In this document: positions 6,924 through 62,132 of the stretch, piece by piece | How positions within the stretch are numbered: position 1 is the stretch's first letter | Layout: each line of letters starts with the position of its first letter | NCBI GenBank assembly: GCA_015143295.1 | Contig: CM026553.1 | Coordinates: forward strand, 1,798,001-1,862,000 | DNA: 64,000 nt | Direction: 5' to 3' | Source: Tetracentron sinense | Lineage: Eukaryota > Streptophyta > Magnoliopsida > Trochodendrales > Trochodendraceae | The notes under the pieces: model-generated | Database searches by the model: none | What the model was told of the DNA's origin: nothing | The model's input: the letters and a program-made list of their open reading frames with translations, nothing else | Made by a program: the position numbers and the translations under genes

Positions 6924-7137
6924 AACCGATCGCTTTGTCAAATGTAGAGATCGATCGGTTCACAACCGATCGCTCGGTCATTATTAGCGATCGATCGGTA
7001 CAAAACCGATCGATCGGTAGCTATCGACTGGTTAACTTTTTTGTATGGGGAAAAATTCCAGAGAGCATGTTTTTGACCGGTCGCTCGATAGGAGACCGAT
7101 CGATCAGTCATAACCACCGATCGCTCGGTCTATCGCG
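6924..7137 (+). repeat. Cluster of self-complementary motifs in U3 of Gypsy A
   Basis: About nine copies of ACCGATCGATCGGT and variants such as ACCGATCGCTCGGT, separated by 5-40 bp of unlike sequence. Each unit is nearly its own reverse complement. The cluster ends about 54 bp before a TATA-like stretch, so it occupies the usual place of promoter-proximal enhancer sites. Confidence 0.85.
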
Positions 7138-8119
7138 TTTTGCAGAAATTTCATTAAGGGCTTTTTCATCCTTTAGGCATTAAACCCTTACCCATAAGGG
7201 CTTGCTCGAGCAATTGGGTCTCCATTTACTACACTTAGAACATTTAGAGAGAAAGGGGAAGAGAAGAAGAGGGTTTTTCTCCTAGGGCATCCTTGGTGAA
7301 GAAATCAAGGGTTTAAACACCAGAGATTATCCCAAAAGGCTTGGATTCATCAAATCCAACCTCAAGCTCGTGTGGTGTTCCCTTTCTAAGCTAGGGAAGC
7401 GATCTTATGACATTTTACGAGGGCTTTCTTCCCCAAATCAAGCCTTCTTCAAGCAAGGGTTCTTCCCTACCATTTGGGGTTCTATTTCAAGGTTTCTTCA
7501 AGGTCAAGCCTTGATTCAAGGTTAGTACACTCTACTAACTTTCTCTAGCAATAACCTAGTTTTCCCCTTTTTAAATTCATGATTTCGATCTTGTATTCTC
7601 TTCCCTTGAAACATATTTTATATCCTAAACCTAAACAAGATAAATGGGAATGAATGTGGGAGGTATGAATGGATGCATTGGGTTGAGGCGATTGGATGTC
7701 GAGATGTATGATGTGTGATGTGTGTGATGGAAAATGGAGGATGGGCATTTCAAACATAATGAATACACATGGTGTGGTGTGATGAAACATATGCATTAAG
7801 AAATTAAAATGAAATGGCTATTAATGTGATGCTTGCCAAGTGTTGGATAAAATGCTTAAATGATGATTTGAACGAATGAACTTGAGTTATGGAAGCATGA
7901 ATTGAGTTATTACTGTTAAATGCCTACCTCGATCAAATGCCCTACATGCTATCTACTATCCCGTATGCTTATATTAGAAATGAAAATGCTATACTTATGT
8001 GATCCTCTGATTCAAGCATGTCATCATGATTGTCACTTATGGCACGCACACGAGCACGCATATTTGCATGAACCGAGTTTTCAAGAGTATATGCATATAA
8101 TAAATCAACAAGAAAACAT

Positions 8120-8465
8120 TGCATGTCAAGGAGGTTGGTTGCCTAGGGAGGTTCAGGTACTAGCCTCTGGCTCACAAGAAAACCAAAATTTACTACATAT
8201 CAAGGAGGTTTGTAACCTAGAGATGTCCGGGTACTAGCCTCTGGCTCACAAGAAAACTAATCAAGTAACTAAAACCCATATATGTCAAGGAGGTTGGTAG
8301 CCCAAGGATGTGCAGGTACTAGCCTCTGGCTCACAAGAAAACAATATGTCAAGGAGGTTGGTAGCCCAGGGAGGTTCGGGTGCTAGCCTCTAGCTTACAA
8401 GTAAATGAAACATGTCGAGGAGGTTAGTGGCCCAAGTGAAGGGTGCTAGTCTCTGGATCACAAGA
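8120..8465 (+). repeat. Minisatellite inside Gypsy A 3' LTR
   Basis: The counterpart of the array at 600-960: about five units of 60-75 bp with the words AAGGAGGTTGGTAGCCC and CTCTGGCTCACAAG. Unit number is the same in both LTRs, as expected for copies made at insertion. Confidence 0.88.
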
Positions 8466-8738
8466 ACAAGTTCACAAGAAAAGGCTCACAAGTATACAAG
8501 ATGAGACAAGACACAAATACATGATTTTCACAAGAACGACCGAGACATGGAATGAGTTTTTTAAGCATGAGTTTTATCGGGGTTTTAGCATTCATGCACG
8601 CATGTCAAGATAATGATATTGTTTTATGTTCAATACTGTTTATCTTATGATGCTACTGTTGCTTTGAATTGATATCTTGTATTGTGTTCACCCTTGTTGT
8701 GCTTTATTATTGCTATGGTTAGCTAGTAGTTTGTACTC

Positions 8739-8760
8739 GCTGAGTATTCTATGCTCAGCC
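8739..8760 (+). other. Conserved LTR hairpin (Gypsy A 3' LTR)
   Basis: Same hairpin as at 1215-1236, about 430 bp before the LTR end, with one base in the centre different between the two copies and the arms unchanged. Confidence 0.75.
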
Positions 8761-9192
8761 GTACCTTTATGTAGGCAGGTACCAGAAAGCCCTCGACCCT
8801 GAGCCTTAGGTTGAGGAAGAGTACATGGAGGAGAGAGAGCCGTCCATCCCATTACAGTCTCAAGCGGATAGAGACCTCGACATGTGGCCGTACCTCGACT
8901 ACTGTTGAGGGGAGAGTACGAGAGGGTTCCTTGTGTATTTTGATATTTTGATAGGTGGGCCTGTCCACCTTAGACCTGGACATGTTTTGTGCATATATTC
9001 ACTTGGAATACAGACTATCTTATGTAGAAAAGAAAAGTTAGTTTACGTTTCCGTATTATGATATAGGTTCCACACTCTGATTCATGTTATATTATGGTAT
9101 GTGTACCTTGTTCATTACAGGATGGTTTGGCAGGTACACACAGTCACACCTAAAGTATCCCCTAACTCGTAGGGGTATTTTGGGGCGCGACA

Positions 9193-9421
9193 GTAACTCA
9201 CTCGTCGCTGTGTGGAGAGGACTCATCGACGAGTCCAGGTAAAATTTGAAATTTTCAAATTTTGCTTACAGGCTAGATTTCCAAAGCATTAAAAACCTTT
9301 TATAATTGATTTTAGGCCATTTTAGAACATAAGAGACAACATATCAAGTATGAGATGGCACAAGCAAGATCATTCAATTCTTACATAAAGATTTTACTAA
9401 GTTTTCCTTTAGTCATTTGTT
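9193..9421 (-). other. 3' noncoding region of Copia-1
   Basis: Between the end of the RNase H region and Gypsy A. AT-rich; I see no gene. At 9197-9237 it holds two copies of the CTCGTCG..CGACGAGT type of self-complementary motif, which also occurs in the Copia-1 LTR. Confidence 0.6.
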
Positions 9422-12400: not shown

Positions 12401-12490
12401 TCACATGTCCTCCATCCTTTGGAAAGATTGAGATGAATAGTTCTTTGTTTCCCGACATGTGCCTTGAACATCCACTATCCAAGAACTATC
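9422..12490 (-). pseudogene. pol of Copia-1: protease, integrase, RT, RNase H (fossil)
   Basis: On the minus strand, domains in order: protease active site in MDSGCSRHMSG (near 12480); integrase zinc region around WLWHRRLGHASMDLLSKL and CDACQLGKQ; integrase core with LLHLDLFGPNDV, VIVDDYSRFTWVLFL and NGFNQNFSIPKTPQQNEVVERNNRS; reverse transcriptase with [14 protein letters not shown] (near 10640), [14 protein letters not shown] and [15 protein letters not shown] (near 10370); RNase H with VSYSDADFAGCKVDRKSTSG and SIAEAEYVAAGSC (near 9900-9740), ending in a RRELGMANLDD tail. Several breaks, densest around 10675-11330. Confidence 0.92.
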
Positions 12491-12750
12491 CTATCTTGGA
12501 GGAGTTAGGTTTCGAACAAACCTACAAAACAAAATTTAAGTAACTCCAACATATAATCCTCCCGAAACCCACACAGTTTTAGATGGAAACCAAACTGATT
12601 TTTAAATGTTTTTGGGATGGTGAGTTCCTTTTGGTACCCAAACCATGTGTGGTCCTTTGTGGATGGTCTTGGGAGTGTATGATCCTTTTAGAACACAAAT
12701 TTTCTTAACTACTTTCTTTCCATTAAAGGTGAAAAATGCATTAGGAGGGT

Positions 12751-14245: not shown

Positions 14246-14290
14246 AGGGGATCTTTAACTCAAGATGGTTAGATCTAAAATAGAGCACAT

Positions 14291-14305
14291 GGCTCTGATA
14301 CCAAT
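14291..14305 (-). other. Primer-binding site of Copia-1
   Basis: Minus-strand ATTGGTATCAGAGCC, the initiator Met tRNA site, directly after the LTR end. Confidence 0.93.
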
Positions 14306-15647
14306 TGATGCCCAATTAATGGACCCTAGAGGGGGGGTGAATAGGATTTATGGCAAATTAACAAATTACTCTAAGTGATATAAGCAGAATTTAGAACTTA
14401 TCACAATAGCTACCAACTAAAATCAGAGATGATAAAGGAAAGAGAAGGATAGAGATACCAGACACTAGATATGTTATCGGGGTTCAGCAACTTGCCTACA
14501 TCCCCGCCTTTCAGCTTTTCCCGCTTCAAGGATTTTCACACGATTCACTAATTGTACTCTTCTTTTCTGGTAGAAAGCAAGCCTTACAATCCTTTTCTAG
14601 GGTCAGGAAGAACCTCTTACAATCCTTTTGCAGGTGAAGGAGTAACCTCTTCAAGAGAGACTCTCTCTTAGATACAAGAAGACTCACTTCTTGCAGGGTG
14701 CAAGAATCCTTGATTCTTGACTTTCAATGAATAAAGAAATTTGTGGATTTTTAATCCGAATTGAAAGCTCCTTAATTGAGCTAGATGAGAATTGAATACA
14801 ATGCTTACAATCTCTCAAGATAGATTGGAATTGAATGCTCAAATGAGTGAGAGATTAGGTTTCAGGATATTCAATGCAAAAACAGAGTATTGATTGCTAG
14901 AGGTTGGTGAGTGATGAATGATCAATAAAACAGTGATTGGAATCCTTAGTTGTATATATTTTTATCATAAATCAGCTCCATTTATAGTTGGACAATCAAT
15001 ATGGCCATTGGGAGAAGCATTGAATGCGAACTAGCTGTTTCAAAATAGACGTTATAGGTTTTTCCCACAGGTACTCGTCGACGAGTAGGAGAGATTCAGG
15101 CTTGATTCGTCGCCGAGTGGAGACAGAAGCAATTGCTTCAATTTCTGTCACCCACTCGTCGACGAGTCCCTTGTACTCGTTGACAAGTCCACTAAAATTT
15201 TTTCAATAAACTCATCTTTATGAGACCAAAAAGATGGGAAACATGTTAGGACCCTTAGGCAATGGATTTAATAGTATTTTAATCATTTTAGGGCCTTAGA
15301 AAGATGTTCATGTTATACTAGGTCTCCTAGGGTCAATCTAGGTAGTCTTTGAGCAATTCTTTTCCAATGTCTTGAGGACATTTACAAGGTCCTAGACACT
15401 TTTAACTTTAGACACCAATCTTCATTCTTGATTAAAGAAGCTCTACTCTTGATGGATCTTCAAGAATTTGTCTTGAGCTTTTGGGGTTTCTAGCATTTGA
15501 ACTTTGACCTTGATGACTTTAAAATGAATTAAGCTCTTCAATTCTTCATATCTTGAATCTTTGATCTTAATAGGCTTATTTTCTGAAATTTCACATAATC
15601 AATGAAAATATTAGTGCAACTAGAGTCATTCTATTACTGTGTCATCA
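14306..15647 (-). repeat. 5' LTR of Copia-1 (1342 bp)
   Basis: Bounded by the inverted ends TGATG (14306) and CATCA (15647); followed by TTGAA, the likely target-site copy. On the plus strand it starts with the CCCTAGAGGGGGGGTGAATAGG block that marks this LTR type in plants. A cluster of ACTCGTCGACGAGT motifs lies at 15065-15190. Confidence 0.88.
15065..15190. repeat. Self-complementary motif cluster in Copia-1 LTR
   Basis: Four copies or variants of ACTCGTCGACGAGT (exact near 15071 and 15155; variants near 15100 and 15175) in 126 bp. The motif type and spacing mimic the clusters of the unrelated Gypsy LTRs, especially Gypsy B. Confidence 0.8.
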
Positions 15648-16440
15648 TTGAAACTAGTAAGGGAACATAGAGTTGTAACCTTGAGGCTAACAACTAACCT
15701 CCAGAAATTAGAGAATTGCTTGTAAGTACCATCTTACAATATATTTACAAATAAATCTTTCTACATTCCGATATCACTTGTAAGCTTCCGGGATTGGAAC
15801 AATTCCACTGTCTAGTCTCTAGCTTATGAATAGAATCCTTTCTCATGATTACTTTTTCATTGAACTAAACCTCCAAAACACTTTTGAAGAAACATTAGAA
15901 AAGAACTGACATATATATTTATATATACTTTTCTATATTGAAAATATCAACTTCGATAAAGACCATTTTACCGAAAACCACTAGTACTGGATTTAACAGT
16001 TCAGTTCAACAAGTATCACCTTCATATCATTATCTCCAATTAAGGAGTTGTGGATTCTTTATTGAGTATTTACACACTTCTCCAAACATTGTGTACATGA
16101 CCCAACATACCCGGAGTTAGTCCTGTGTATTGGACATTGCCCATTGTCACATCAAAGTCATATAGAAAGATGTCTAAGAAGATGTTAACCTCTCAGGTCT
16201 AAAGACAATTTGTCAAATGGATAACCTTAATACAATCTGACAGTGTATTCCATAGGGTATCCACTAGTGACCCCGTTCAGTATTATGTACTTGCTACATA
16301 TACTCACATGTTAGTCAAGAGTCACCACTCTCTATGAATGAGATTCATCACTCATAGAACTACACACATGCAAGCCATGATGAAGTACGATGCCCAACCA
16401 GTACTCTAGAGGCTTCGAACAATATTAGGTTTACAAGGAA
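15648..16440. other. Eroded, unassigned sequence, probably an old LTR remnant
   Basis: No coding region and no clear ends. The wording (alternating short AT-rich stretches, CACTCTCTATGAATGAGATT-like phrases) resembles old Copia LTR sequence on the minus strand, such as the Copia-2 LTRs, but I cannot align it. It separates Copia-1 from the Gypsy LTR fragment G. Confidence 0.35.
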
Positions 16441-16526
16441 CTGAAAAATCATATCTCCTCGTAAATGGGTCTACAGGTGTGATTGATTGCAGTCAGAGAA
16501 AAACTGAGAAAAACATTCGGGTTCAA

Positions 16527-16591
16527 GTGCGATAGATCGTCCCCAGGTGCGATCATCGCAGTTTGTGTGCGATCGATCGCACGTGGGTGCC
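16527..16591. repeat. Self-complementary motif cluster in LTR G
   Basis: GTGCGATCGATCGCAC plus two variants, ending 34 bp before the TATA box. A different motif from that of A, in the same place. Confidence 0.75.
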
Positions 16592-16624
16592 TATTTCTGA
16601 ATTAAGGGTTTCAGCACCCTTTGC

Positions 16625-16633
16625 CTATAAATA
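16625..16633 (+). promoter_or_regulatory. TATA box of LTR G
   Basis: CTATAAATA in a GC-poor U3, just after the motif cluster and before a pyrimidine/GAGAG-rich leader. Confidence 0.7.
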
Positions 16634-20464: not shown

Positions 20465-20466
20465 AG

Positions 20467-25931: not shown

Positions 25932-28900
25932 TCAAATACCATTAACTATTCTAATATTACCCAATCCTGTTTTGTCAAGAAAGATAAGAGATTTGAGCTG
26001 AGAAGGACCATCTTGAATAGAATAAATTTTACCAGATTGCTGAGAGATACAAGCATGATTAGCAAGAAAGTCTGCAACCATATTAGCTTCCCTATAAATG
26101 TGAGAAATAGAATAACTATTAGCCATCGCTTGAATTAGCTTTTTATTCCAATACCAAACATTCCAAGGATGGCTAATATTACCCTTCCATGCTTCCACAA
26201 GGGATTTAGCATCAGATTCAACCTCCACCTGAAGATAACCCAGACTTTGACATAGATTAAGACCATCCAGAAGCGCTCTAGTTTCGGCAACATAATTTGA
26301 GCAAATATCATAAAAAGAATAGAAGCTAGCGATCATAGTACCAGTATGATCTCGAATAATACCACCTCCTCCTGCTAATCCAGGGTTACCTTTGGAAGCT
26401 CCATCCACATTCAATTTAATTCTACCTTGAGGAGGTCTGAGCCACTTGATATGAGAGATAAAAGTTCTTCTTTGAATAGGAGGAGGCATAATTTGGAGCA
26501 TTGAAAAATCCATAGGCTTTTTCAAAGGTAGAGATCCCAGATCAAACATCCATTTCTGAATTCTGTCAATAATAACATTGATTGGTTTGTGCACATTGTT
26601 GAATCTTCGAGAGCATCGTTCTTTCCAGATCTCCCAAATAGAAATAAGAGGAAGAATATTATAAACCCCATTATGTCTTCTCTCTGAAGCTCTAAACCAT
26701 CTCATGAGAAAACAGTGGATGTTGTCACTGGGTTGAGGAAGAATAGAGCAAAGCCTACCAAAGTGTCCCCATACCATACCTGCAATGTCACTCTGTAAAA
26801 GAAGATGAGTTAAAGTTTCAAAATGACCTTGATTACAACAAGAACAAATACTGGCTAGGGGAATGCCCACAGATTGAATCATATAATCAATAGGAATAAC
26901 TCCATACATAACCTTCCAACCAAAAATTTGGATTTTTGTTGGAATGGTCTTATTCCAAACAAACTTGGGCCAATCTTTAAGCATGGAGGAGTTTCTAATA
27001 GATTCCCAAGCTGTTTTAACAGAGAAATTACCTTTAGAGCTTAGGTTCCAAATAAAAGCATCTTCTGCATCTGAAGTAAAGAAACCCGCTTGTTTAATAT
27101 CATTTTTGAGGTAATCAGGAAGGTAATTAGTAACGAGACTAAAATCCCATAATCCATTATTATCAAGCATTTCTGAAATATGAGGGAAAACAGTAGGCGG
27201 AGTAATAGAATTAACAATTAGAGGAACATCTCCAAACCAACAATCAAGCCAAAAACTAATTTTATTCCCATTACCAATTAAGGCCGACGTTTTGCAAACA
27301 ATATCCTTACATAATTGGCTAACATGAATCCAAGTTTTGGAAGCACTAGGACGAAAAGAAGCATACCAAATGTGATTAAATTGGAACTTAGATTTAAAGA
27401 AAGTTGACCAAAGATTTTCAGATTGATAAAGCATCCAAGCTTGTTTCATTCTAAAGGCAATAGAAAAATCATGCATTTTCCTTATACCCAAACCACCTTC
27501 CAATAAGGGAAGAGCACAAGTATTCCAATTAATCCAATGCCTTTTTTTAGATTCAACCCTATTGTTCCAAAATTTTTTTGCCATAGATTTATCTATAAGG
27601 TCAGAAATAGCTTTAGGGATGTAAAGGCCAGTTAGGAGGTGAGTGGAAATAGAAGATAGAACATGTTTAATGAGAATCAATCTACCACCAGCAGATAAAA
27701 ATTTTCCTTTCCAACCTTCAATCTTATTAAGAATCTTATCAACTAAAGGATTAAAAAAGACTTTTTTTAATCGACCTTTATAAAGAGGAACACCCAGATA
27801 AGTAAACGGAAAATTTTTATTTGGGATGTTAACCCAACTGGAGATAGCAAGACTTCTGGTTCTAGAAATTTTAGACGAACAATAAAATGCACTTTTAGCA
27901 CGATTAATTAGCTGACCAGAAGAAACTTCATAAGTAGAAATGAACTCAAAAATTTTCTTAATATTCTGCTTTCTACCATTGCAAAAGATAAGTGTATCAT
28001 CAGCAAAAAGAAGATGAGAAATCAGAAATCCATACCTCCCCAATTTATAATTTAGAGAAAGACTATCAGAGAGACTTCAAACCCCTACTAAGTACTTCCT
28101 CAGCCAAGATAAAGAGAGCAGGGGAGAGGGGATCTCCTTGTCGAAGACCACGCGTACTCTGAAAATAACCTTGAAGACTACCATTAATAATAATAGAGAA
28201 GGATTGAGAGTAGAGACAACCTTTAATCAATCTGAGAACTTCATTTTTGAAGCCCATCTTTTGAAGGACTGCAATAATAAAATTCCATTCCATACGGTCA
28301 TAAGCTTTTGACATATCCAGTTTGAATATGATATTACCTCCTGGAGTCAATCTATCAATGTCCTGCACCATCTCTTGAGCTAAACTTATATTATCAGAAA
28401 TATTTCTCCCCTTAACAAAACCACTCTGTTCCTCAGAAATAATATTAGGAAGAAGAATACCAATCCGATCAGTCAGAAGGCGCGATATAATCTTATATAG
28501 AAAATTACATAGGCTAATAGGTCTATAATCAAAAAATGAAACAGGAGAGCTACATTTGGGAATAAGCGCAATAGCAGTAGAATTAATAGCCTTAGGCATA
28601 TTAGCATGAGTAAAAAAATGAGAAATAGCACTAAAGAGATCATCCTTAATAATAGTCCAACAAGACTGATAAAAATGACCTGAAAAACCATCCGGGCCAG
28701 GCGCACTATCAGCAGACAAATCAAACACTACTTTCTTAATTTCTTCCATGGAAGAAGGAATATATATAGAATTATTATCATCTTCCGTAACAAGGCAAGG
28801 AATATAATTAATAATATTTTGATCAATTATGCCATTAGATGAGGATAATAAATTTTTAAAGAAAGAAACACCTGCAGCACCAATATCCTCTCTAGAATCC

Positions 28901-32153: not shown

Positions 32154-32210
32154 GAAACCCTAACTAATTTCCTCTCTCCAATGTTAAATCCCTCTACAGC
32201 CACTGATTAG

Positions 32211-39917: not shown

Positions 39918-40742
39918 TGTACCATCCCAGAATTTTTGTGTATGCCTTGGAATGCATGTCAAGGCATGGAGCCTTGTAAATTCAATTTTCATGAAATGAG
40001 AAAATTGGAAACCTTTGGAAATTTTGCAAGAATTACATAAATAATTAAATAAAATATTTAATAATGTACCATGGCCTTAGAAGGGTCTTAGTCATGTTTA
40101 GAAGAGGTTAGAATAGAGGTGGAATAAGTCCAAATAGTAGGAATGAGTGAAAAATGGACTTAGTGTCGAAATTTACAGATGACCAATCGCTCGGTCCATA
40201 TCAGCGATCGATCAGTTCACAACCAATCGATTGGTTTCTATCGACTGATGCACTAAATTGTATGGAGAAAATTTCTAAAGAGGGTGTCTTCAATAGATTG
40301 ACCGGTCGAAAACACCGATCGCTCGGTAGACAACTGATCACTTGGTGATAACCACCGATCACTCGGTCCTTCGCGTTTTGTAGAAATTTCATTAAGGGAT
40401 TATTTGTCTTTTGGCCAACACCCCTTGGCTTTATAAGCCTTGCTCGAGTGTTGGGTCCTCACACACCACACTTAGAGCATTTTGAGAGTAAGGGAGAAAG
40501 AACCTAGGGTTCCAAAAGGTTTCTTCCTATTTGAGAGAGAATCAAGGGTTTGAGGACCCTAGAATCATCCCAACAACTTGGATTTCTGAAATCCACCCTC
40601 AAGCACTTGTGGAGCTCCTTCTCTAAGCTTGGATAGCATTTTCCATGGTATTTCTCAAGGGTTGTCTGCCCAATCAAGCATCCTTCAAGCAAGGGCTCTC
40701 CTCTTCTAAGTTGGAGCTTCAATCAAGGGTTTCCATCCAAGC
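39918..40742 (+). repeat. Gypsy LTR fragment C (left part of an LTR)
   Basis: Starts TGTACCATCCCAGAATTTTT within Copia-2a, like the LTR start of Gypsy A. It has the motif cluster (40181-40378), a TATA-like TTTATAAG (40430-40437) and a leader-like stretch, and resembles Gypsy A closely in TCGCGTTTTGTAGAAATTTC and CATTAAGGG. It then gives way to Gypsy B pol on the other strand. TGTCC (39913-39917) is a candidate target-site copy. Confidence 0.8.
40181..40378. repeat. Self-complementary motif cluster in LTR C
   Basis: About eight units of the ACCGATCGCTCGGT / GCGATCGATCAGT kind, like Gypsy A but with different unit order and spelling. Ends about 52 bp before the TATA-like stretch. Confidence 0.8.
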
Positions 40743-43840: not shown

Positions 43841-44036
43841 TATCTACGATCGTTCGTAGCGATTTACGATTGATCGTAGCCTTCTACGATCGATCGTAGC
43901 TTCCTACGATCAATCGTAGTTTCACCCGAGAGTTTCCAGCATTTCTGGGGCTTTACGATCGATCGTAGCAACTCTACGATCGTTCGTAGCTCCGCTACGA
44001 TCGTTCGTAGGGTCCCTACGAGCGATCGCAACTTTT
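43841..44036. repeat. Self-complementary motif cluster in the solo LTR
   Basis: About eight units of CTACGATCGATCGTAG and variants (CTACGATCGTTCGTAG, CTACGATCAATCGTAG). The near end is about 53 bp from TATTTATAG (TATA, minus strand). Confidence 0.85.
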
Positions 44037-44071
44037 GCAGAAAGCTTTAACATTTTTGCATTTTCGTATCT

Positions 44072-49400: not shown

Positions 49401-49525
49401 CTTGTGATCATCGAAGAGTGGGTTGTAGTCGTCAATGAGAGGTTAAAAATCTTCGATGAGTGGGTCATTTTTGCATTCTGGTGGGTTAACTCGTCGACTA
49501 GTCCAAGGCACTCGGCGACGAGTCA
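49401..49525. repeat. Self-complementary motif cluster in Gypsy B LTR
   Basis: Units around ACTCGTCGACTAGT, ACTCGGCGACGAGT and looser ATCGAAGAGTG/TCGATGAGTG forms, about 90 bp from the TATA box. This motif type is that of the Copia-1 LTR. Confidence 0.7.
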
Positions 49526-49565
49526 AAACAATAACATTTTTTCGCTTTTCCCACTTTAGTATTTT

Positions 49566-49630
49566 AGCCATAACTTTTGACTCGCTTATCCGATTTTGAC
49601 GATTCAACTTGTGTTGGATTTATATTCAAA
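49566..49630 (-). promoter_or_regulatory. Conserved U3 box, Gypsy B
   Basis: GCCATAACTTTTGACTCGCT, then TTTTGACGATTCAACTTG and TGTTGGATT, as in A, F and the solo LTR. Confidence 0.6.
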
Positions 49631-51528
49631 ATGGCTACAACTTTTATGATTTACAAATTTTCTAATTTTTCTATCTTCATGGACCAAATTTCCCATAAAT
49701 TGACTGGTGCGAAAATGGAATTCAGCAGCCCAGATTTTCAGCAGACTTGTTTCCAGAAATCTGACGTTTGACCCAACCTCGACACAAAATCTGAAAAGAT
49801 GATAAACATGAACCTTGAAGAGGGTTTCAATACCTTTCCAAAAATTCAAGAATTACTTGATTCCAATCCAAAGTGAGAATTCTAGAGCTCTTTAAAGTTG
49901 AGGGTATGTTTAGGCATCTCTTTCTTTGACACTTGGAGTATGTTATACTCTCATTTTTCATTTGTCCCTAACCCCCAAAAACACTTTCCATAAATATTTT
50001 GATTCATTCAAAATATCCTTTCATTATAAAACATGAACCCACAATTTCATTTAGGCTTTAGGCATTGATGGCACTATTCACATAAACAGTGAACCTAAAT
50101 TCTGGGGCACTACAGTTATACTCACGCTTTGGCATTATTGTATGACATCTCTTATTCATGTGTTCACCTACCATGAAACTAATAAACACTTAGCGAAAGC
50201 TCACGCTTTGGCATTGTTGCTCCCACTATTTTCTTATAAAGTTTCCACCATGTTTTCACATAGGTGAGAGGGATTGGGCCTGAGTTTGGCCTATTAGCTT
50301 ACTCACACTCCCCACTATAAGATCACATAGTGTATGGTAGAAGATCATAATACTTAGGGTCTTGTCCCCAGTCTTATATACGCATGATATATTAGGGTAA
50401 TTATTTCAATAGAATAATTAAACATAAACAATCAACAGATATTATCTCATGATAAAATAAACAAGTATCATCTCATGATAATAAACAATAATAAATATCA
50501 TATGAGATTAATCGCTATGGGTCAATGAAAATTAAAATGCATGGATGCAAGAGCATTAAATAAGAATAAAGGCAACTCGCAAACTCCTTCACGATCCCTT
50601 CCTTCATCATCTTATCGAGATCATCATCGGAGCATCCTCCTTCACAGCATCTCAACCATTGCATGATACAGAAATTAAATGGCATTAGAGAAACCAGATT
50701 TCCATTCGCCCTTTTTCAGGAAAACCAAATGAATCTACCCTTACAAATTTGTCAAAATCCTACTACATATTTTTCTCTAATATGAATGTATTATAAACAA
50801 TTCATCATAGATTAAAATTGACCCATAACTACAATCAGATGCAACATGGTGATGGAGTACTTTTTCTGATATTTTAAAAGATTAAAAAAAATTGATAACA
50901 ATTATCAATTGGCTCGATAAAATCTATATCTTATATAGATCAAACCCCAGAAAATAAAAAAATTATATTTTCCAACAAACAATTTTAATAAAATTATTTT
51001 TAAAATATAAGATAGGATTTTCTTAAATCTCTACGATCTTTTATTCTTTTCTTGAATGCAAGATCCTTTCTCGAATGCAAGATACTTTCATATAAATTGG
51101 TTCTACTATTATTCAAGATTAAAATAAAAAATAAGAGAACGGAAAATCTTCAATATGACCTCATCAAAAAATAGGGTTTTAAAATTTTTCGAATAAAATC
51201 TATTTATAAGAAAAACCTTCATTAATTATTTTAAAAAATTAACAAATATATTTTTAAATGATCAAATCATTTAAAAGGATTTTCAAAATAAACTATTTAT
51301 TTCAAAAATTGATTATATCACATATAAATCTAGTTTCTTAAAATTATTTAATTATTATCATTATCAAATCTCATTCGATAAATAATACAAAAAATAATTA
51401 TTTATTTATTCATCTCATGAACAAATCAAAAATAAAAACTACGAGCAATATTAAATAAAAAAAATTAAATTCATCTCATAAATTAATTTATCTATTTAAA
51501 ATAAACAAAAAATACTCCCTTACCATGA

Positions 51529-51540
51529 GCTTTGATACCA
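51529..51540 (-). other. Primer-binding site of Copia-2c
   Basis: The usual initiator-Met site on the minus strand, with slight divergence; it fixes the LTR boundary at 51543. Confidence 0.8.
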
Positions 51541-51937
51541 CTTGAAAGGAATCCAGATAAAAAATTTATGCAGAAAACTAGATCCCGAAGATTTATACAC
51601 CATAAAAAGCAAATAATACTAACTACATGTTTAGATAATTACCTCGGTGAATGATGTTCACCAGTGAAGCCCAAAACAACTTGAACCATCAGAACTCTTT
51701 GTAGAGATTTCTCGAAGAAATACTCAAAGCTAGATCCTTTATCTTCGCCATCCCCGTGAAGCTTTTGAATCTCTACTTGGTATTGAAGAAACAAAGAGAA
51801 GAAGATTGTTGGAGTAGACTTTCTATCTCACAAAACCTTAGGGTTTACAAACCCTAGCCTTCAATCAACTTAAAGAGACCCTATGAAGCTCACGAAAATT
51901 TGGAGAGAACTATTCTCTCAAGTATAGCTCATGGTTT

Positions 51938-51954
51938 GGGGGGGGGGGGGGGGG
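51938..51954. repeat. Run of 17 G in the Copia-2c LTR
   Basis: A pure G run, absent from the Copia-2a and 2b LTRs at the same place. Length is likely unstable, or uncertain in the assembly. Confidence 0.85.
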
Positions 51955-53568
51955 AGAAAAATTAATTGGAATGCAATATATCTCCACACGGTTTGGGTAT
52001 GGGTCTATATATACGTTTGGATCAAATCCTAATCCTAATCCAATTAGTTGTTATCCCTTATAGAGTTATTTAATAATGATAACTCTTATCATTAATTAAT
52101 TAAACTCCTAGCTTATCTATAACTAATTTAGTTATAACAAATTTTCTAATTTAAGAATCCTTTTCACAAAAGGATTCCTTAATTAATGGGAATTAACAAA
52201 CTCCCTTAAAACAAGGGATCCTAATCCAATTAGGAAACCCCCAAAGGGTGGGAGCGTGAGCTATAGTGAGTGTGAGAGTGAGGAACACTTGGTCTCCAAG
52301 TCTTGATAAAATTCCGATCTTATCTCCTTGTTTCTTACTTTCCAAGTATTGGAATCTAATCCCATAAAATAAGGAATAATTAATTAGTAATTATTTAACT
52401 AACAAACTCCTAACCAATTAGGAATCTCCATATGGGCGCCTGCCCTAGGGAATTAATCCCATGGGTTTGGGCCCATTTTTAAGGTCCACTCTTTATGGGT
52501 TTTATGGATATGGGTCAAACCCATTTCCCCTTATTTTGTGTTAATTAAATAATCATTATCAATATCCTTTAATTTAGATTAATTTTTAATCTAAACCTTA
52601 GATTAACATTTAATCTATTTTATTAATGATTAATATTTAATCATTTAAATTATAGATTAACATTTAATCTATTATTTGAGCTTGTATTTCTTATGTGAGC
52701 ATCTCCGCAAATTGTTTTGGGACATTCTAACCTTGGCTTACCAAATGTTATCCCATTGAACCTTAAACAGGAATGACATTGGAATTACAAGTGACGTGAG
52801 ATATCCATGTTGCAATTGAATCCCAGTGTAAGAACATTAACCATTAAGGATCCTGCCACATGAACTTTTTAATTCAATTGATCATTCCAATAACATTATC
52901 CCTAATGGGCCTTCGAGATTAATATACGATCTAACTCATAGCCCATTGTTCATCATCCAGGTTTCCAAGACTTCGGATTAAGCCATGAGAAACTTTTTCT
53001 CATGTAAAACATTTTGAGAAAAACTTTTATTATGTATAATATATTTTAATGAAAATATATTTCAAACTTGTTTGATTTCAGAATCACCTGTGTCAGATTT
53101 AAGCTTAATCGACTGTCTTACCCAGAACTTAGATAATCTCTCAAATTAATGAGCATTGATTTCTTGTTTGAAAATCATCAGGACTCAAATAACTTTCTGA
53201 CTATCCAACTGTCACCATATCATAGTCTCTCAGGTAGAAATTACTTTGGTGGAATCAATGTAGTCAAATTACTGTTCAGCTATAAATAAACTCATCAAAT
53301 CTAAGGATCATTGAAACTGTTCAATGTGAATGAGAGACCAACTATCAATACACCGAAGCATACCTAATGGTAGTATAGCATACAATTTGTGTTTCTTGCG
53401 TAGGTCACTAAGTTCGGTTGGGTTTCAACCGGTTATGGACTACGACTAAATGGTTAGTCTATGCTTAGAACACAACTCTTTTCTAAAGCCTAATGCCTTG
53501 TTTCAATCATAGTATCAATTTCTAAGTGACCATAAGGAAATCTAAAGCATAGGCTCTGATACCAACTC

Positions 53569-55807
53569 TGTAACGCCCCAAATTCCCCCTAAGACTTTAG
53601 ACGTTACTGTCATGACCTGGCAAACCATCCTGCAAAATATACAAGGCATACTATAGTGGAAACGAAATAAATGCAGAAGCGAAACAATGCGGAAGCGTGA
53701 AATCAATTTTTCTTTTCTAAACATGATCAATACTCCAAGGATTTTATACATAAACATGATCAAAGTAAGAGTGGACATGCCCTCCCATCAAAATACAAAA
53801 TAAGAAAACCTCACTGACTCTTGACCCAACAATAGTCTAGCTAGGGCCACCTATCTAGATCTCTATCCTCCTGAGGTTGCAATGGAATAGGCGCCTCTTC
53901 TTCAACATACTCTTCCTCAACCTATGGCTCGAGGTTGAAGATATCCACCGGACCTATCGACATGAAATGTACAGTTGAGCATAGAATACTCAGCGAGCAC
54001 AAGCTACTAGCCAACAATAGCAATAACATAATTCAATTCATATTATCAAATTAAACAGTATAATGATCATGACATACATAGAACTAAATACGAAAACTCC
54101 ATATAAAACTCATGCTCATAATTCATAACTTATTCTTGATAATATCTTTCCATATCTTCAAAACTTACTTGCCGTGTTTAAAACTTATTCTTGTCTTGCT
54201 CTCGTCTTGTGAGAATCATGCATGTCTTGTCTTGCTTGTTATGTTTGAAATCACACTTGTCTTGTCTTGCTTGTCTTGTGAGCCAGATGTTAGTTTCCTT
54301 GTAATGACTTGTGAGCCGGGTATGTAAGCACCCTTCAACGAAAATAGAAAAGGTACACCAACATCCTTGATTTTCTTGTCTTGTTTTCTTGTGAGCCAGA
54401 TGTGACATATCATTGGATATGCCCCATCCTTGACCAACCAAAAGTTCAGCTTTATCATTCTTGCTTGTCTTGTTTTCTTGTGACCCAGATATGGCACATC
54501 CTTGGATATGCCCTATCCTTGACTGACCCAAAGTTCGGCTTTATCATTCGTTTCATAAATCACTTGTCTTGTTCTTATTTGTTTATCATATACTTATACT
54601 TAAAAACCGGTCATGCATACATGCTTGTGCATATGAAATCATGAACCTCATGATGGTATAAAAAAGCTTAAGTAAATGCATACATTGATTTAAGGCATTT
54701 CTGTAATCATGGAACAATTCAAAAACATCATAAGCCATTTCTATAATCATGGAATAATTCAAAAACATCATAAGGCATTTCTATAATCATGGAAAAGCTT
54801 CAAAGCTTCAAAGCATCATAGTATACTTGAAAAACATGAAAAATGGAAATCATGGTCATAAGTAGGCCTACATGCCATATAGCATGGTCACTTACATCTC
54901 GATCATGCTTAATAATCCATACATTTTAGGGAAACATGCTTGGTTTGGAATTTGGAAACCATTGTACAAAATCTCAACATTGAAAAGCTTGAAAACCTAG
55001 GTTCGGGATCTAAGTTACCACTAGGTTATCTAGAAGGGTGTACTTACAAGTTTACTCACAAAGCATGCATGGAACTCTCCCTCTTAATATTTAGATTATC
55101 ACTAAGCTAGGTAGTAGAAAGTATTAACCTTTAGGATTGGAGAAAACTTGAGGATACTTGAGAAAATGAGATCCAAACTTGGTGGAAGAAGATCCACCCT
55201 TGGAGACAAAGATCCAAGCTCTCCCTTTATCACCCAAACTTTCCTTGAGAAAAACCCTAACTTCTCCCTTTCTTTCTCTCTAATCTCTCTCAAAACTTAG
55301 CTTGAGGGTTTATGAAACCCTAAACCCACGAAAATTGGCTTATATAGAAAAAGGGGAGGTCAAAAGACCATCCTACCCTTAAATATTTGGTGAAACAGAC
55401 CAAAATGGGCAAATTTTCGAGGAGCGGTCGACCGGTCCAAACAAGCCTCTCTAGAATAAAATCCCATACAAAAAGTTCAATCATTGGTCGACCGGTAATG
55501 GGTATCAGTTGACCGGTTGCCGATCGATCGATCGGTCGTAAAATCAGTCGATCGTTATTGCCCCGTTCCTTGCCATTTTTGCTGTTTTTCTCATTTTTAA
55601 CACTTAGAACATTTTTCCTCTTAATTTCGAATATCTAAAACCCAAACATGAAACCTAGAATATTTTTTCATTACACACACAACACAAAACTTGAGTGAAA
55701 CCCCATTTATCATTAAAAACAACCATGTAACACATAAGGCTTCAAGCCTTCACCGCACTATTCACACACTATTCCCTGACTATACAAATGAAATTTGTGG
55801 TTCTACA
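53569..55807 (-). repeat. LTR of Gypsy D (2239 bp)
   Basis: Holds the hairpin variant (53973-53994), a TGTCTTGTCTTGCTTG/GTGAGCC minisatellite (about 54180-54540), a 57-bp duplication of CATTTCTATAATCATGGAA sequence near 54700-54795, TATA (about 55340-55347) and the motif cluster (55421-55560). Confidence 0.9.
55421..55560. repeat. Self-complementary motif cluster in Gypsy D LTR
   Basis: Units GGTCGACCGGT and CCGATCGATCGATCGGT and variants, about 74 bp from the TATA box. Mixes the motif types of A and F. Confidence 0.8.
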
Positions 55808-56505
55808 GTTATCTAGATTTCCTCCACACATGATAGCCACGAAGGCTATGAAGGCTCAAAAATTTGAAACGAGATTGAAGGCCTACATCAAGAATAGAGT
55901 CTCGATGTTTAGGCATGAGACCTATGCAGAGGTGGTGGATAAAGCCCAGCTAGCTAAGTCAAATTCTGAGGAATTCTTCAAGAGAAGGGAGAATGTTAGA
56001 GGCCAGTCTAGTAGCTCAACTCCTCCTGAAAAGAGGGCTAGGACTACATCGTACCAACCTTTAGGGCCAGCGCAATCTTAGAGGCCTTACTCTACACTGC
56101 AGACTTCTCACCCTTTTGCTCCACATGCTTCACGTCCACCGACTACGCAGGCTCCTCGCCTCGCGCCATCTCAGGCCAGGGGATATGTGACTCCCACACC
56201 CTCTACGTTTTCGTATGAGGTTTTCACTTATTGTGGTAGGAGACATTTAGCCGGAGAGTGTCGGAAGATTTCTGGTGGATGTTTTCACTATGGTGACCAG
56301 GGCCACATGATTAGAGATTGTCCTCACTGACAGTTGTCATCCTAGTCTCAAGAAAGCAAGCCCCAGATTCGGTAGCCTTCTCAGCATGGGTTTTCACAGG
56401 CATCAAGGCCCTCACAGTCTACATGACCACCTCGTCAGGTAAACCAGGGTCAAGTCTGTGCCATGACTGAATGGGACGCATAAGCATCTGACAATGTCGT
56501 GCAAG
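55808..56505 (+). pseudogene. Second half of gag of Gypsy E (fossil)
   Basis: Begins within the capsid-like domain (LKAYIKNRVSMFRHETYAEV, as in Gypsy A LKSYLKDRVSMFQHETYAEV), then a Ser/Pro/Arg-rich tail and a zinc-knuckle region near 56275-56325. Broken in a few places. Confidence 0.87.
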
Positions 56506-56612
56506 GTATGCTAGAGTGTTAAATTTTCAAGTTATAAATGTTTGCTATTATATGATATGGTTGCTTATCTGTACAACATGCTCCCTATACAGTGAGTTAT
56601 TTCATTACACTG
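56506..56612 (+). other. Noncoding spacer between gag and pol of Gypsy E
   Basis: 107 bp, beginning GTATGC as in Gypsy A, at the same point after GTCGTGCAAG and before the protease. Confidence 0.55.
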
Positions 56613-59600
56613 GCGCGTTATTAGTAAATGAATGTCTAGCCTGAGTGTTGATCGACACAGGATCCACTCATTACTTCATCTCGCTAGTTTTGCAAATGGA
56701 TTTTTATCTGAGTCAAGTCTGTTGGAGCATGAGTTATCCATTTCGACTCGGCTTGGCAAGTCGGTGGTTGCCGACCAAATATACAAGGATTGTGTTGTCC
56801 AAGTGGGGCAGAATGAGTTGTTGGCCGACCTGATTATCCTAGATTTCTAGGATTTTGAAGTCATCCTGGGAATGGATTGGCTTGCGGTGTACCATGGGCA
56901 TGTGGCTTATTTCGAGAAGATGGTGAACTTCAGGTCGAAGGGCGTAAAGTCGATTCATTTTCGAGGGTTACAGAGGAAATATATCGCTCGTTTCGTAGCA
57001 CTGAGCCTTTCGAACCTGGAGGCACGAGAGTCCTTAGCCATTCCGGTTGTGAGTGAGTACTTGGATGTGTTTCCTAAGGATTTGCCTGGATTGCCTCCAG
57101 ATTGGGAGATCAAGTTCGCGATAGAGCTTGCTCTGGGCATAGCTCCGATTGCAAGGGCAACGTATAGGATGGCCCAAATAGAGCTTAAAAAGTTGAAGGA
57201 GCAAATCGAAGAGTTGCAACAACTTGTATTCATCCGACCAAGTGTGTCACCATGGGGAGTACCAGTACTCTTCGTGAAAATGAAGGATGGGTCGATGAGT
57301 ATGTGCATCGACTATAGGCAGTTGAACAAGATCATGATCAAGAATCGTTATCCATTGCCTCGGATTGACTTGTTTGACCAACTAAAGGGATCAATATTTT
57401 TCTCCAAGATTGATCTTCGATCAGGTTATCATCAGTTGAAGATAAAGGTTGAAGATGTTCCCAAGACTGCTTTCAAGACTCGGTACGGGCACTATAAGTT
57501 CCTTATCATGCCGTTCAGGTTGACGAATGACCGGCAGCATTCATGGACTTGATGATTCGGGTGTTCAAACCTTGTATCGATCAATTTTTCATGGTGTTCT
57601 TTGATGAAATCTTAGTAAATTCCTCGACACAGGAGGATCATGATCGAGACCTTCGCCGCACTCTTGAGACACCTCGAGAGCATAGATTATACGTCAAGTT
57701 AAGTAAGTGTGAACTCTGGTTGGAAAAAGTGGCATTTCTTGGCCACGTAGTATCCACGGAGGGTTATTTGGTTGATCCAAAAAAGATAGAGGCAGTGATG
57801 AGCTAGGAGAGGCTCAAGAGTGTTACAAGGACACGTTATCTTCCTCGGTTTGGCAGGATACTATTGGCGATTCATGGAGGGATTCTCTAGTTTAGCGGCA
57901 CCTCTCACGTATCTTACTCAGAAGAATGCCAAGTTTGTTTGGAGCTATAAGTGTGAGAATAGCTTCATGGAGTTGAAGAAGTAGCTCACTATGGCTCTCA
58001 TCCTCACAGTGTCATCCGAGAGTGGTGGTTTTGCGGTATATAGTGATGCCTCGCATGTTAGGCTAGGATGTGTTCTGATGCAGTGCCAGAATATAATTTC
58101 CTATACTTCAAGGCAATTACAAGATCACAAAAAGAACTATCCTAAACATGACTTGGAGTGGGCCACAGTGGTGTTTGCATTGAAGATATAGTGACACTAT
58201 CTTTATGGGGAACAGTTTGATGTGTTCACAGATCACAAAAGTTTGAAGTATCTGTTTTCCTAGAAGGAGTTGAACCTGAGGCAGTGACGATGGATGGAGT
58301 TCTTGAAAGACTATGAATGCTCCATTCAATACCATCTAGGTAAAGCGAATGTGGTGGCAGATGCTCTTAGCAGAAAGCCTGCTGGACTCTTGACTCACAT
58401 GATGGTGCAAGAGTGGAAGTTGTTAGAGGATGCGTCTAACCTCGACATCAGTTTCAGCCTTCTTACCTTTGGGCTAGTGATGACTAATATCATCGTTAGG
58501 TCTTACATCTTAGTTTGGATCCTAGAGTTACATGGTTCGGATGTTGAGTTGCTTGCTTTCCAAGAAAAGTCGATTAGCAGTGGTAGTAAGGATTTCACCT
58601 CGAAGGGTGATGGGACTATCACATTCAAGGGAAGGATATGTATTCCAGTCGATGAGAAGCTTAGACGAGAAATCTTGGATGAAGCTCACCGGACCAAGTA
58701 TACAGTACACCCTGGGGATACAAAGATGTATTAGAATCTCAAGGGGTATTTCTGGTGAAAGAACATGAAGAGGGAAGTGGCAGAGTATGTGTCTCGATGC
58801 TTGGTGTGTCAGTAGGTCAAGGCTGAGCATATGAGGCTAGCAGGTCTTTTGCAGCCCCTCCGTATTCTTAAGTGGAAATGAGAGAACATTTCTATGGACT
58901 TCATTATGGGGGTGCCATGAACAGCTAGGAACTCCGATGCCATTTGGGTAGTGGTTGACAGACTTACTAAATCTGCTCATTTCCTTCCCTATCGGACTAC
59001 GTTCAACTCGAACCAGCTAGTTGCATTGTACATCAAGAAAGTGGTTCGGCTGCACGAGGTGCCAGTGAGCATTGTTTCAAATCAGGATCCTAGATTCACT
59101 TTCAGGTTCTGGAAGAACTTCCAGAGGGCTATGGGTTCTAGTTTGGACTTTAGCACCGCTTTTCATGCTCAGGCTGATGGGCAAACCGAGAGGGAAAATT
59201 AGGTGATTGAGGACATGCTCTGAGCTTGCATGCTAGACTTCAAAGGCAGTTGGGAGGATCACTTGCCTTTGGTTGATTCGCCTACAATAATAGTTATCAG
59301 GCGAGCATCCAGATGGCGCCTTTCGAGGCTTTGTATGGGAGAAGTTATAGGTCTCCTCTATATTGGGATGAAGTTGGTGAAAGAAAAATCTTGGGTCTAG
59401 AGTTCATCGAGCAGACTGCGGATCGGGTTAAGATCATCAGTGAAAGGTTGTAGGCTTCGCATGATCGACAGTAGAGCTATGCCGACAACCATAGGAGAGA
59501 TCTTGAATTCCTTGTTGGCGATTTTATGTTTGTCAAGATTTCGCTGACAAAGGGTGTTATGAGGTTCGGAAGGAGGGGCAAGCTTAGCCCTAGATATGTG

Positions 59601-59862
59601 GGTCCATTTGAGATTCTCACCAGAGTTGGTGAAGTTGCATTTCAGGTTGCTCTACCCACTCACATGGCGGCGGTTCACAACATATTCCATGTTTCCATGC
59701 TTCAGAAATACATACCGGATTCGTCACATGTCATCAAATTGGATCCTTTGGTGATTCGGGAAGACCTCACATTGGTGGAGCAACCGGCCCAAATCTTGGA
59801 CCGCAAGGAACAAGTGTTGCGCACCAAAGTGAAGGAAAAGTACCCTCAATTGTTTTTGTAAT
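56613..59862 (+). pseudogene. pol of Gypsy E: protease to chromodomain-like end (fossil)
   Basis: Protease region near 56640-56870 (LIDTGSTHYFIS); [22 protein letters not shown] (IEFAIELA-type segment, [40 protein letters not shown] near 57400); RNase H ([20 protein letters not shown] near 58025); integrase zinc region (HRTKYTVHPGDTKMY near 58690); core ([20 protein letters not shown] near 58955, FHAQADGQTEREN near 59160); LSPRYVGPFEILTRVGEVAF (59585), and the end HVIKLDPLVIREDLTLVEQP with REQVLRTKVKEKYPQLFL. Several breaks. Confidence 0.9.
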
Positions 59863-59912
59863 TTCCCTTCATTTATTTTGTATCGTCTTAATTTCGATGA
59901 AGAAATTTTTGT

Positions 59913-59923
59913 AAGGGGGAGGA
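59913..59923 (+). other. Polypurine tract of Gypsy E
   Basis: AAGGGGGAGGA directly before the LTR start. Confidence 0.9.
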
Positions 59924-60145
59924 TGTAAGACCCCAAAACTTTGGGTTATAGCTCAGTGAATAGTGTTTTAAGGCTTAAAGCCTTTGTATGTTCAACACCG
60001 TGGTTAATGAAAATGAGAAAATGAGGCTTCAATTGTGTTGATGCGTATGGAATAGATTCTAAGGTCCAAAGGACTCTTGAAATGTTTAAAGAAAAGAAAG
60101 AGGCTAAGCCAATGAGAAAATGAGAAAATTAGAAGAAAACAGGGG

Positions 60146-60372
60146 TGACCGTTCGAACGGTTTTCCATGACCATTCGAACGATCCTAGTGGGTGATGAAT
60201 AAAACATCAGTAATTGAAGGCAGTAAGCAAAACCGCTTGAATGGTTCTATGACCGTTCGAACAATCCCAGTAAATATGGAATCAGAAATTCAGAAAAACA
60301 AAACAGCAAGCAAAATCGTTCGAATGATCACAAAACCATTTGAATGATCAAAAGATTGTTCGAACAATCATG
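60146..60372. repeat. Self-complementary motif cluster in Gypsy E LTR
   Basis: About eight units of ACCGTTCGAACGGT and variants (CGTTCGAATGATC, ATTGTTCGAACAAT), ending 60 bp before the TATA box. The variant ATTGTTCGAACAAT has changed on both sides together, keeping the dyad. Confidence 0.85.
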
Positions 60373-60431
60373 CACAGAAAAGTCGCAAATAGCCCTAAGT
60401 GCGGGATTTTTAGGGTTTCAACCCTCTTGGC

Positions 60432-60440
60432 CTATAAATA
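60432..60440 (+). promoter_or_regulatory. TATA box of Gypsy E LTR
   Basis: CTATAAATA, followed by GGGACCC and a GAGAG-rich leader, as in LTR G. Confidence 0.75.
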
Positions 60441-60974
60441 GGGACCCAATTCGTGGGTTTTAGGTTACTCACACCTAAGAAAGAGTTAGGAGAGAAAGGG
60501 GGAGATAATCTAGGGTTCTAAAGAGGGGTTTTGTTTAAGATCAAGGATGTCGCGCCCCAAAATACTCCATAGGAGTTAAGGGATACTTTAGAGGTGACTG
60601 TACGTACCAGCCAAACCATCCTATAATGAACAAGGCTAAACATGATATAATAATTCCAATAAGCCGAGTGCGAAAGCAAATCATGAGTGCGGAAGCGTGA
60701 ACTAACTTTTTCCTTCTTCTATAACTCCAAAATAGTATTCCAAGTTAACATATACAAGACATATCAAGTCAAAGGTGGATATGCCCACCTATCAAAATAT
60801 CAAAATGTACAAAAGAACTCTCCTCTCAATAGTAGTCGAGGTATGGCCACAGGTCCAAATCCCTATCCTCCTAAGACTGCAATGGGATAGGTGGCTCCCT
60901 CTCCTCTACGTACTCTTCCTCGACCCAAGGCTCAGGGTCGAGGACATCCACAGAACCTGCCGACATAAAAGTAC

Positions 60975-60996
60975 AGCTGAGCATGGAATACTCAGC
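60975..60996 (-). other. Conserved LTR hairpin (Gypsy F)
   Basis: CTGAGTATTCCATGCTCAG on the minus strand, identical to the Gypsy A 5' LTR and solo LTR copies. Confidence 0.75.
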
Positions 60997-61956
60997 GAAT
61001 ACAAGTTACTAGCTAACCACAGCAATAACAATAGCATAACAATAGTGAACACGATACGAAATATTAATTAAAGCAATACTAGCAGCATTAGATAAATAGT
61101 ATTGAACATAAAGCAATATCAATATCTTGACATGCTTGCATGAATGCGAAAACATCGGAAAAACTCTTGTTGGGAAACCCTTTTCATGTCTCAGTCTTGC
61201 TTGTGAATATCATGCATGCATGTCTGTCTTGTCTTGTATTTCCTGTCTTGATTTGTTTTTGACTTGTATACTTGTGAGCTAGATGCTAGCACCCACACAT
61301 CCCTGGGCTACCAACCTCCTTGATATTTCCTTCACTTGTGAGCCAGAGACTAGCACCCTTCACTTGGTCTACCAACCTCCTTGACATGTACTTGTTTCCT
61401 TTTCTTGTGAGCCAGAGGCTAGCACCCTTAACTTGGGCTACCAACCTCCTTGACATGTGATTGTTTTATTTTCTTGTGAGCCAGAGGCTAGTACCCTTCA
61501 CTTGAGCTACCAACCTCATTGACATATGCTTGCTTCTTGTTTGATTTATCATGTACAAATACTCTTGGAAAACCCGGTTCATGCATGTATGCGTAGGTGT
61601 GTGTGACACTTGTAATATCATGATGACAATATGACATGAAGAGTAGTGTATAACAATTCAATCCATAGTATAAACATGTGCTTATTTAGATAATCTATAT
61701 GGCATTTAATCAAGGTTGTGAGTTGGAGGAAGATGAGATTAGATCCTTTGAGTAGAAAATCCTTACTTAAGATGAGTTTTGAGCAAAACTCTAGCTATAC
61801 CTTTCTCTCCTTTCTCTAAATCTCCCAATATAAGCCTTGAGGGTTTATGAAACTCTCACCCACTGATTTGGGGTTTATATAGAAATTGGGGTGGTCAAAT
61901 GACCATCCTACCCTTAAAATCTCAGCTAAAATAGGCCAAATAGGCAAAGTACTCGA

Positions 61957-62132
61957 GGAGCGGTCGACGGGTCGTAGGAGCGGTCGATCGGTAGGCTAGC
62001 GGTCGACCGGTTGACTGGAGCGGTCGATCGGTCCAAAACCCCCTCTCTCGAAAATTCCCCATACAAAATTAGTGCGATAGCGGTCGACCGGTAGGCTACG
62101 GGTCGACTGGTGGCTGCAGCGGTCGACCGGTT
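61957..62132. repeat. Self-complementary motif cluster in Gypsy F LTR
   Basis: About seven units of GCGGTCGACCGGT and GCGGTCGATCGGT, ending about 75 bp from the TATA box (minus strand). Confidence 0.85.

Follow-up and report, generated by a model that had tools for sequence, protein, structure and literature searches.

Short repeated sites in the U3 part of plant long terminal repeats (LTRs), bound by plant nuclear factors and specific to subfamilies, are known from the BI and BII boxes of Tnt1 and the enhancer boxes of Tto1. The palindromic arrays that we describe here, found upstream of the TATA box in LTR retrotransposons of Tetracentron sinense, resemble them in being short, repeated, located in U3 and variable between families or subfamilies. 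Tnt1 and Tto1 are each single Copia families, and to our knowledge their boxes do not form arrays on a grid of two helix turns common to superfamilies. The arrays lie in a stretch of 64,000 bp of contig CM026553.1 (assembly GCA_015143295.1; C3:1798001-1862000, hereafter the window), whose content is nested LTR retrotransposons; the genome comprises 1.16 Gb in 1,479 contigs.

In the accessible text of Bousios et al. (2010, PMC2829016), where Tnt1 box I is also cited for its symmetry, the RM boxes of Sireviruses are palindromic, lie above the TATA box, and are called Sirevirus-specific and absent from classic Ty1/copia elements. There are at least 8 copies per element, with 3-14 in the 3' LTR; they occupy the upper LTR half, with a conserved TATA on average 37 bp after the island, and 12 of 13 motifs have a CGG-CCG core, Tnd-1 being the exception. 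The present arrays share with them the place above TATA, the palindromic and multicopy character, the family-specific outer bases on a common core and the richness in CpG, but eight of the nine lie in LTRs earlier filed as Gypsy, and most of their dyads are TCGA-centred without CGG-CCG. Palindrome clusters in the LTR cis-region were likewise described by Bousios et al. (2016, as relayed in the available part of PMC10760457), who treated them as a hotspot of small RNAs in a single Copia genus. For the Del (Tekay) lineage, to which one of our hosts has been assigned, Cruz et al. (2014, PMC4029996) reported plastic 5' CpG islands that are, like our arrays, CpG-rich, length-variable and located in the 5' LTR half. 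In the main text of that paper 'palindrom' and 'tandem' occur 0 times, and as far as it could be consulted the islands are found in its grasses, and in none of its eudicots or the nearest grass group.

No such arrays are described in the accessible parts of PMC11656987, PMC8282616 and PMC10794571, and among the matches listed, as far as our searches reach, no title or abstract opening reports such dyads in Tekay LTRs. The suggestion of the first-pass annotation of the window that they were undescribed for Tekay is to that extent uncontradicted, although PMC2829016 and PMC4029996 are close precedents. Rows of palindromes in Sireviruses are already known; new, within the same searches, are the chromodomain Gypsy hosts, the switching of the dyad, its ~ 20-bp phase and a dyad common to two superfamilies. 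Our results indicate that a promoter design reported as Sirevirus-specific also serves chromodomain Gypsy elements, with one box common to both superfamilies in one genome.

Nine clusters, each a palindromic motif repeated in 2-9 boxes above a TATA-like box, were found in the window (Table 1). All eight clusters of the first-pass annotation (A to G and solo) were recovered where it had placed them, while cluster H and a two-box remnant at the window end had been overlooked. Its range of 3-9 copies held at the upper end (A), but at up to 4 mismatches the lower figure is 2 (G), and the distance from cluster end to TATA-like box was measured as 44-95 bp instead of 34-90 bp. Across the nine LTRs, the bin from -360 to -30 relative to TATA holds 25 dyads compared to 3.3 in shuffles, and the four remaining TATA-anchored bins pooled hold 14 compared to 12.8. 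The predicted enrichment near TATA was thus observed, with neither a lack of excess over shuffled LTRs nor an even spread along them. Three other Copia LTRs of the window, which served as controls, had no special excess near TATA (6 dyads vs 3.5 shuffled); their other four bins held 16 vs 8.7, and their CpG observed/expected ratios near TATA were 0.24, 0.28 and 0.98.

Over the whole window, 16 perfect palindromes with 7-bp arms were counted against a mean of 4.4 in 10 dinucleotide shuffles, and 8 of the 16 fall inside the earlier-listed regions, which make up 2.1% of the window. The core CGNTCGANCG, allowing at most one mismatch, has 41 sites compared to 2.5 expected: 38 in seven of the eight listed clusters, 2 in the window-end remnant and 1 elsewhere. 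Cluster B, which has a shorter core, contains none. Under a strict per-cluster count, in which 6 of 7 pairs had to match, two inner pairs among them, and which was set against 1,000 shuffles, cluster C reached p 0.027, while G (p 0.085), B (0.063) and solo (0.058) were not significant taken singly; solo falls short because the second pair is mismatched in roughly half of its boxes.

Across the genome, paired nearby CGNTCGANCG cores occur 24,914 times on one strand compared to 13 for a reversed control, that is, the pattern read backwards so that GpC stands in place of CpG; the lone core has 98,580 sites vs 5,461, and ACTCGTCGACGAGT has 2,111 vs 1. Copies of the LTRs were retrieved with seven box-free stretches flanking the arrays as queries, scoring the 40 best candidates per search, and the 70 copies cut in all (L numbers below) are the best-scoring relatives, including window copies and near-duplicates. 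At least 3 boxes stand beside the module in 69 of the 70, the exception (L022) being broken off, whereas the query modules contain 0 boxes and other segments of the same loci a mean of 0-0.33. For family A, 29 of 30 copies have an array of at least 5 boxes (range 5-11, apart from one copy with 0), and the six G copies have 3-8.

Each palindrome is ~ 14 bp long: pairing drops past the seventh position (in solo and E the eighth remains elevated at ~ 0.6) and is at chance level beyond, although pairing of the inner pairs is partly built in by the selection of boxes. The dyads are ACCG-ATCGAT-CGGT (A, C), TACG-ATCGAT-CGTA (solo), TGCG-ATCGAT-CGCA (G), ACCG-TTCGAA-CGGT (E), AGCGG-TCGA-CCGGT (D, F) and ACTCG-TCGA-CGAGT (B, H), with CG-N-TCGA-N'-CG as the usual core; examples as 14-mers are ACCGATCGATCGGT, TACGATCGATCGTA, ACTCGTCGACGAGT and AGCGGTCGACCGGT. 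Dyads do differ by family, as had been proposed, with the qualifications that B and H are alike and that the D/F dyad is imperfect, its sixth pair being mismatched in 21 of 21 exact-core boxes at the loci of the F search. The CGG-CCG core of RM boxes is present in D and F only (CGGTCGACCG, identical to a grape Sirevirus motif given in PMC2829016), and the other clusters, H included, read NNCG-N6-CGNN or CTCG-TCGA-CGAG.

The distance between neighbouring box centres is 19-22 bp for 33 of the 45 intervals in the window and for 291 of the 389 in the 70 copies of seven families; in cluster A the successive spacings are 21, 19, 21, 19, 14, 57, 19 and 21. The commonest longer gaps (41, 49-50, 61-63, 70-71 and one of 32 bp) are close to multiples of 10 bp. 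Nine longer gaps gave R 0.80 (p ~ 0.003 vs uniform) at periods of 10-10.7, with R > 0.6 from 9.5 to 11; these were hand-picked as the commonest per family of at least 30 bp, and A gaps of 42 (n = 2) and 92 (n = 3) were omitted.

We consider it probable that the arrays are sites for a putative dimeric host DNA-binding protein upstream of the LTR promoter. Each array would act as an upstream activating region, with a dimer bound to each ~ 14-bp dyad, usually at the core CG-N-TCGA-N'-CG. At a spacing of ~ 20 bp, or two helix turns, several dimers would be aligned on one face of the DNA above TATA. As most boxes contain two or three CpGs, DNA methylation could silence the array. The first-pass annotation had left a dimeric factor and RNA hairpins side by side. 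The former is now better supported, by the 14-bp dyads, the ~ 20-bp spacing, the changes on both arms described below and the dyad common to two superfamilies, and the latter is not favoured as a primary role.

That the factor would come from the host is suggested by the range of elements with arrays. Element A has protease, reverse transcriptase (RT), RNase H and integrase in Gypsy order and a chromodomain, which make it a chromovirus, and its LTR measures 2.4 kb or more (5' module copy at C3:1797227, LTR end near window position 1641). Domain order, chromodomain and an LTR length of 2-3 kb, the features of Tekay/Del elements, were assessed for element A alone and all three were found; the Tekay label, given by the first-pass annotation, would rest on these chromovirus features and not on a tree. 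Cluster H lies in a different kind of element. In its other LTR copy (L044) the octamer AGGGGGAG stands at 859, followed by AT and the LTR from 869, that is, 10 bp before the 3' LTR, and in L045 and L046 it is at the same place with one mismatch, followed by AT/TG. Exact octamers number 2, 3 and 3 in L044, L045 and L046, while the remaining five of the eight H loci have no AGGGGGAG octamer before the LTR. The H LTR ends in a C-rich stretch. A polypurine tract (PPT) octamer in this position, several PPTs and a C-rich LTR end are Sirevirus marks in the accessible text of PMC2829016, and by the octamer 10 bp before the 3' LTR the host of H is, on sequence grounds, a Ty1/Copia Sirevirus. The octamer PPT distinguishes H alone; element A is excluded by its Gypsy domain order and chromodomain. 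The arrays are therefore not Gypsy-specific, and their description as a Gypsy or Tekay feature was too narrow.

All 8 Sirevirus H copies carry the exact dyad ACTCGTCGACGAGT. Among the 6 Gypsy B copies, 1 has it exactly and the rest have close variants. Since unrelated families (chromodomain Gypsy and Sirevirus) carry arrays and two of them the same dyad, the factor would be host-derived, and the helical grid together with this common dyad argues for a host DNA-binding protein. A box common to two superfamilies also makes the putative protein findable.

Related LTRs differ in their dyads. Element A is 78% identical to F over 6268-6907, including the end of pol, and 79% identical both to solo (6786-6901) and to B (6798-6905), and in each case the common homology stops at the array border. 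It had been suggested that position and design are kept while sequence is not; the first part stands, and the second does not apply to the U3 of A, F, solo and B, which are homologous up to that border. In L004 a U3 stretch resembling that of solo (81% over 318) is accompanied by GGCGATCGATCGCC boxes, and L062, retrieved with the G module, has GACGATCGATCGTC in place of its relatives' TGCGATCGATCGCA. As read from these alignments, the dyad is exchanged on both arms together while the array-side module is retained. Between families both half-sites would thus be swapped at once next to an unchanged U3, and within an LTR the arrays would gain and lose units of ~ 20 or 40 bp, a process that would account for the homogenisation of their boxes. 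Such matched changes offer a natural series for the study of how retrotransposons track host regulators or escape silencing.

Tandem units inside the arrays, and box counts that vary among copies, speak for the reading that the arrays are functionless, a palindrome arisen by chance having been multiplied by tandem duplication in LTRs that became widespread by coincidence. We regard this as very unlikely, given that place, design and spacing stay constant across families despite different dyads and spacers, and that changes on both arms between related LTRs are not expected from drift.

The CpG observed/expected ratio is 1.17-2.11 in the clusters compared to 0.17-0.60 in the flanks. In family A, CG is kept best in box cells (83%, vs 79% in spacers, 74% in the module and 65% downstream), taking columns with CG in at least 40% of the A copies; the cells are not independent and the effect is modest. 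These values, and the variable 5' CpG islands of grass Del LTRs in PMC4029996, would fit a methylation-sensing or methylation-evading CpG platform in which the exact dyad has little weight. CpG density by itself, however, requires neither palindromes nor a 14-bp limit nor a 20-bp phase, and the eudicot Del elements of that study have no island according to its accessible text; we find such a platform improbable as the explanation.

The hairpin reading, in which U3 structures at the 3' end of the element's RNA are cut into small RNAs in host silencing or used in the element's own RNA cycle, draws on the observation that the sense clusters fold better than shuffles (z -0.8 to -10.9). In maize, small RNAs concentrate on Sirevirus palindrome clusters (Bousios et al. 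2016, as relayed in PMC10760457). Except in B and C, that is in 7 of 9 clusters, folding of the antisense strand (z -0.5 to -12.8) equals or surpasses that of the sense strand, as is usual for palindromes. If RNA pairing were under selection, one would expect CpG to be lost to TG, which keeps a G.U pair, more often than to CA, but decay shows no such bias (TG 98 vs CA 117 in all families; 39 vs 44 in the A boxes). By established folding rules, 14-bp dyads with zero loop are poor hairpins taken alone, and there is no obvious RNA reason for a 20-bp grid or a cross-superfamily dyad. The similar decay to TG and CA and the antisense folding lead us to prefer a DNA-binding protein and to judge an RNA role unlikely.

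Several observations weigh against protein binding as we propose it. Box conservation is modest: among 29 A copies, boxes have a mean pairwise difference of 0.114, compared to 0.137 for spacers, 0.094 for the module and 0.276 for downstream sequence. Boxes in the copies were called by each family's own motif, so that per-copy counts are not independent of it, and the sharing between Sirevirus and Gypsy depends on a single exact copy among the six of B. The A array has a 40-bp tandem unit, and the regular spacing inside an LTR may in part be a relic of such duplication. A literature scan for four core words gave, by title among the matches listed, no relevant plant factor for CG-N-TCGA-N-CG. 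In addition, TCGC is the commonest centre in family A (105 of 236) and TCGA accounts for just 91 of 236. Given this, and the second-pair mismatch in about half of the A and solo boxes, the outer half-sites seem weightier than the exact centre.

By eye, many A copies (6925-7129 and L005-L034) show perfect boxes alternating with boxes mismatched at the centre, always in the same order, as though two kinds of box were maintained side by side. LOB-domain proteins, which have CGG/CCG half-sites, were considered as candidate binders, but we name no factor. The palindrome preference at target sites (PMC6911290, in the portion consulted) was set aside, as it is weak, spans ~ 5 bp at insertion sites and does not concern U3 arrays.

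A wider proposal is that a single family of host factors, whose dimeric specificity for CG-N-TCGA-N-CG drifts at the outer bases, has been exploited in parallel by unrelated retrotransposon superfamilies, each new family re-tuning all boxes at once. We offer this tentatively, as possible but doubtful. If it is true, the dyads would record the factor's changing specificity, because all boxes are re-tuned in each new family, and tens of thousands of them would form a fossil record of its shifting DNA code.

Table 1. Array clusters and associated features, in window coordinates; distances run from the last box to the TATA-like box.
Feature	Position	Strand	Description	TATA-like box	Distance (bp)
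Chromodomain, element A	6480..6620	+	PF00385, E 1.4e-6, 28.5 bits (cutoff 25.1), 3' of integrase		
U3 module adjoining cluster A	6786..6907	+	homologous to sequence flanking clusters F, solo, B		
Cluster A	6925..7129	+	nine ACCGATCG[A/C]TCGGT-type boxes, 0-4 mismatches, centres 6931-7122		63
Inner box TTTGTATGGGGAAAA.. in cluster A	7040..7065	+	recurs, each time with 2 mismatches, in C (40257) and F (62053, minus)		
TATA-like box of A	7193..7199	+	degenerate (CATAAGG)		
5' LTR of H-bearing Sirevirus	14306..15692	-	~1.39 kb; primer-binding site 14303-14292		
Cluster H	15073..15188	-	four ACTCGTCGACGAGT-type boxes, Sirevirus LTR	TATA 14986	86
Cluster G	16528..16581	+	two TGCGATCGATCGCA boxes called, third with indel by eye	TATAAA 16626	44
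Cluster C	40182..40367	+	seven decayed ACCGATCG[A/C]TCGGT-type boxes	TTATAAG 40431	63
Cluster solo	43845..44030	-	eight TACGATCGATCGTA-type boxes, spacing 20-21, single 49 gap	TATA 43787	57
Cluster B	49406..49523	-	five ACTCGTCGACGAGT-type boxes, 1-4 mismatches	TATA 49310	95
Cluster D	55423..55556	-	five AGCGGTCGACCGGT-type boxes, 0-4 mismatches	TATA 55346	76
Cluster E	60148..60368	+	seven ACCGTTCGAACGGT-type boxes, 0-4 mismatches	TATA 60433	64
Cluster F	61959..62131	-	seven AGCGGTCGACCGGT-type boxes, 0-3 mismatches	TATA 61881	77
Tenth-array remnant	63925..63958	-	box pair at 20-bp spacing, read from L081		

L081, which extends beyond the window end, has no box besides the two of the remnant. 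A stretch like TTTGTATGGGGAAAA was also seen by eye within D. ARAGORN called a tRNA-Val at 6926-7018, entirely within cluster A; this is most likely a false positive produced by the palindromic dyads. Around the array, the two LTRs of element A differ in 78 of 521 aligned columns, 42 of these being gaps, and its protease-RT frame had zero relatives in the viral-contig and genome-contig collections searched. The LTRs of A and F also contain tandem repeats with units of 64-74 bp and a TTGTGAGC..GAGGCTAGCACC-like core (61326-61536, 756-942 and 8122-8436).

For each of B, E and F, the U3/R stretch has a 94-99% copy ~ 53.6 kb onward on the same contig with order and strand kept (window 49530-62330 against C3:1901098-1913911), probably a segmental duplication. 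Adjoining open frames at 25932-29994 (minus) encode endonuclease, reverse transcriptase, zf-RVT and RNase H-like domains, and with a DUF4283 frame at 31398-32159 they constitute, by their domain content, a retrotransposon of the long interspersed nuclear element (LINE) type with long frames.

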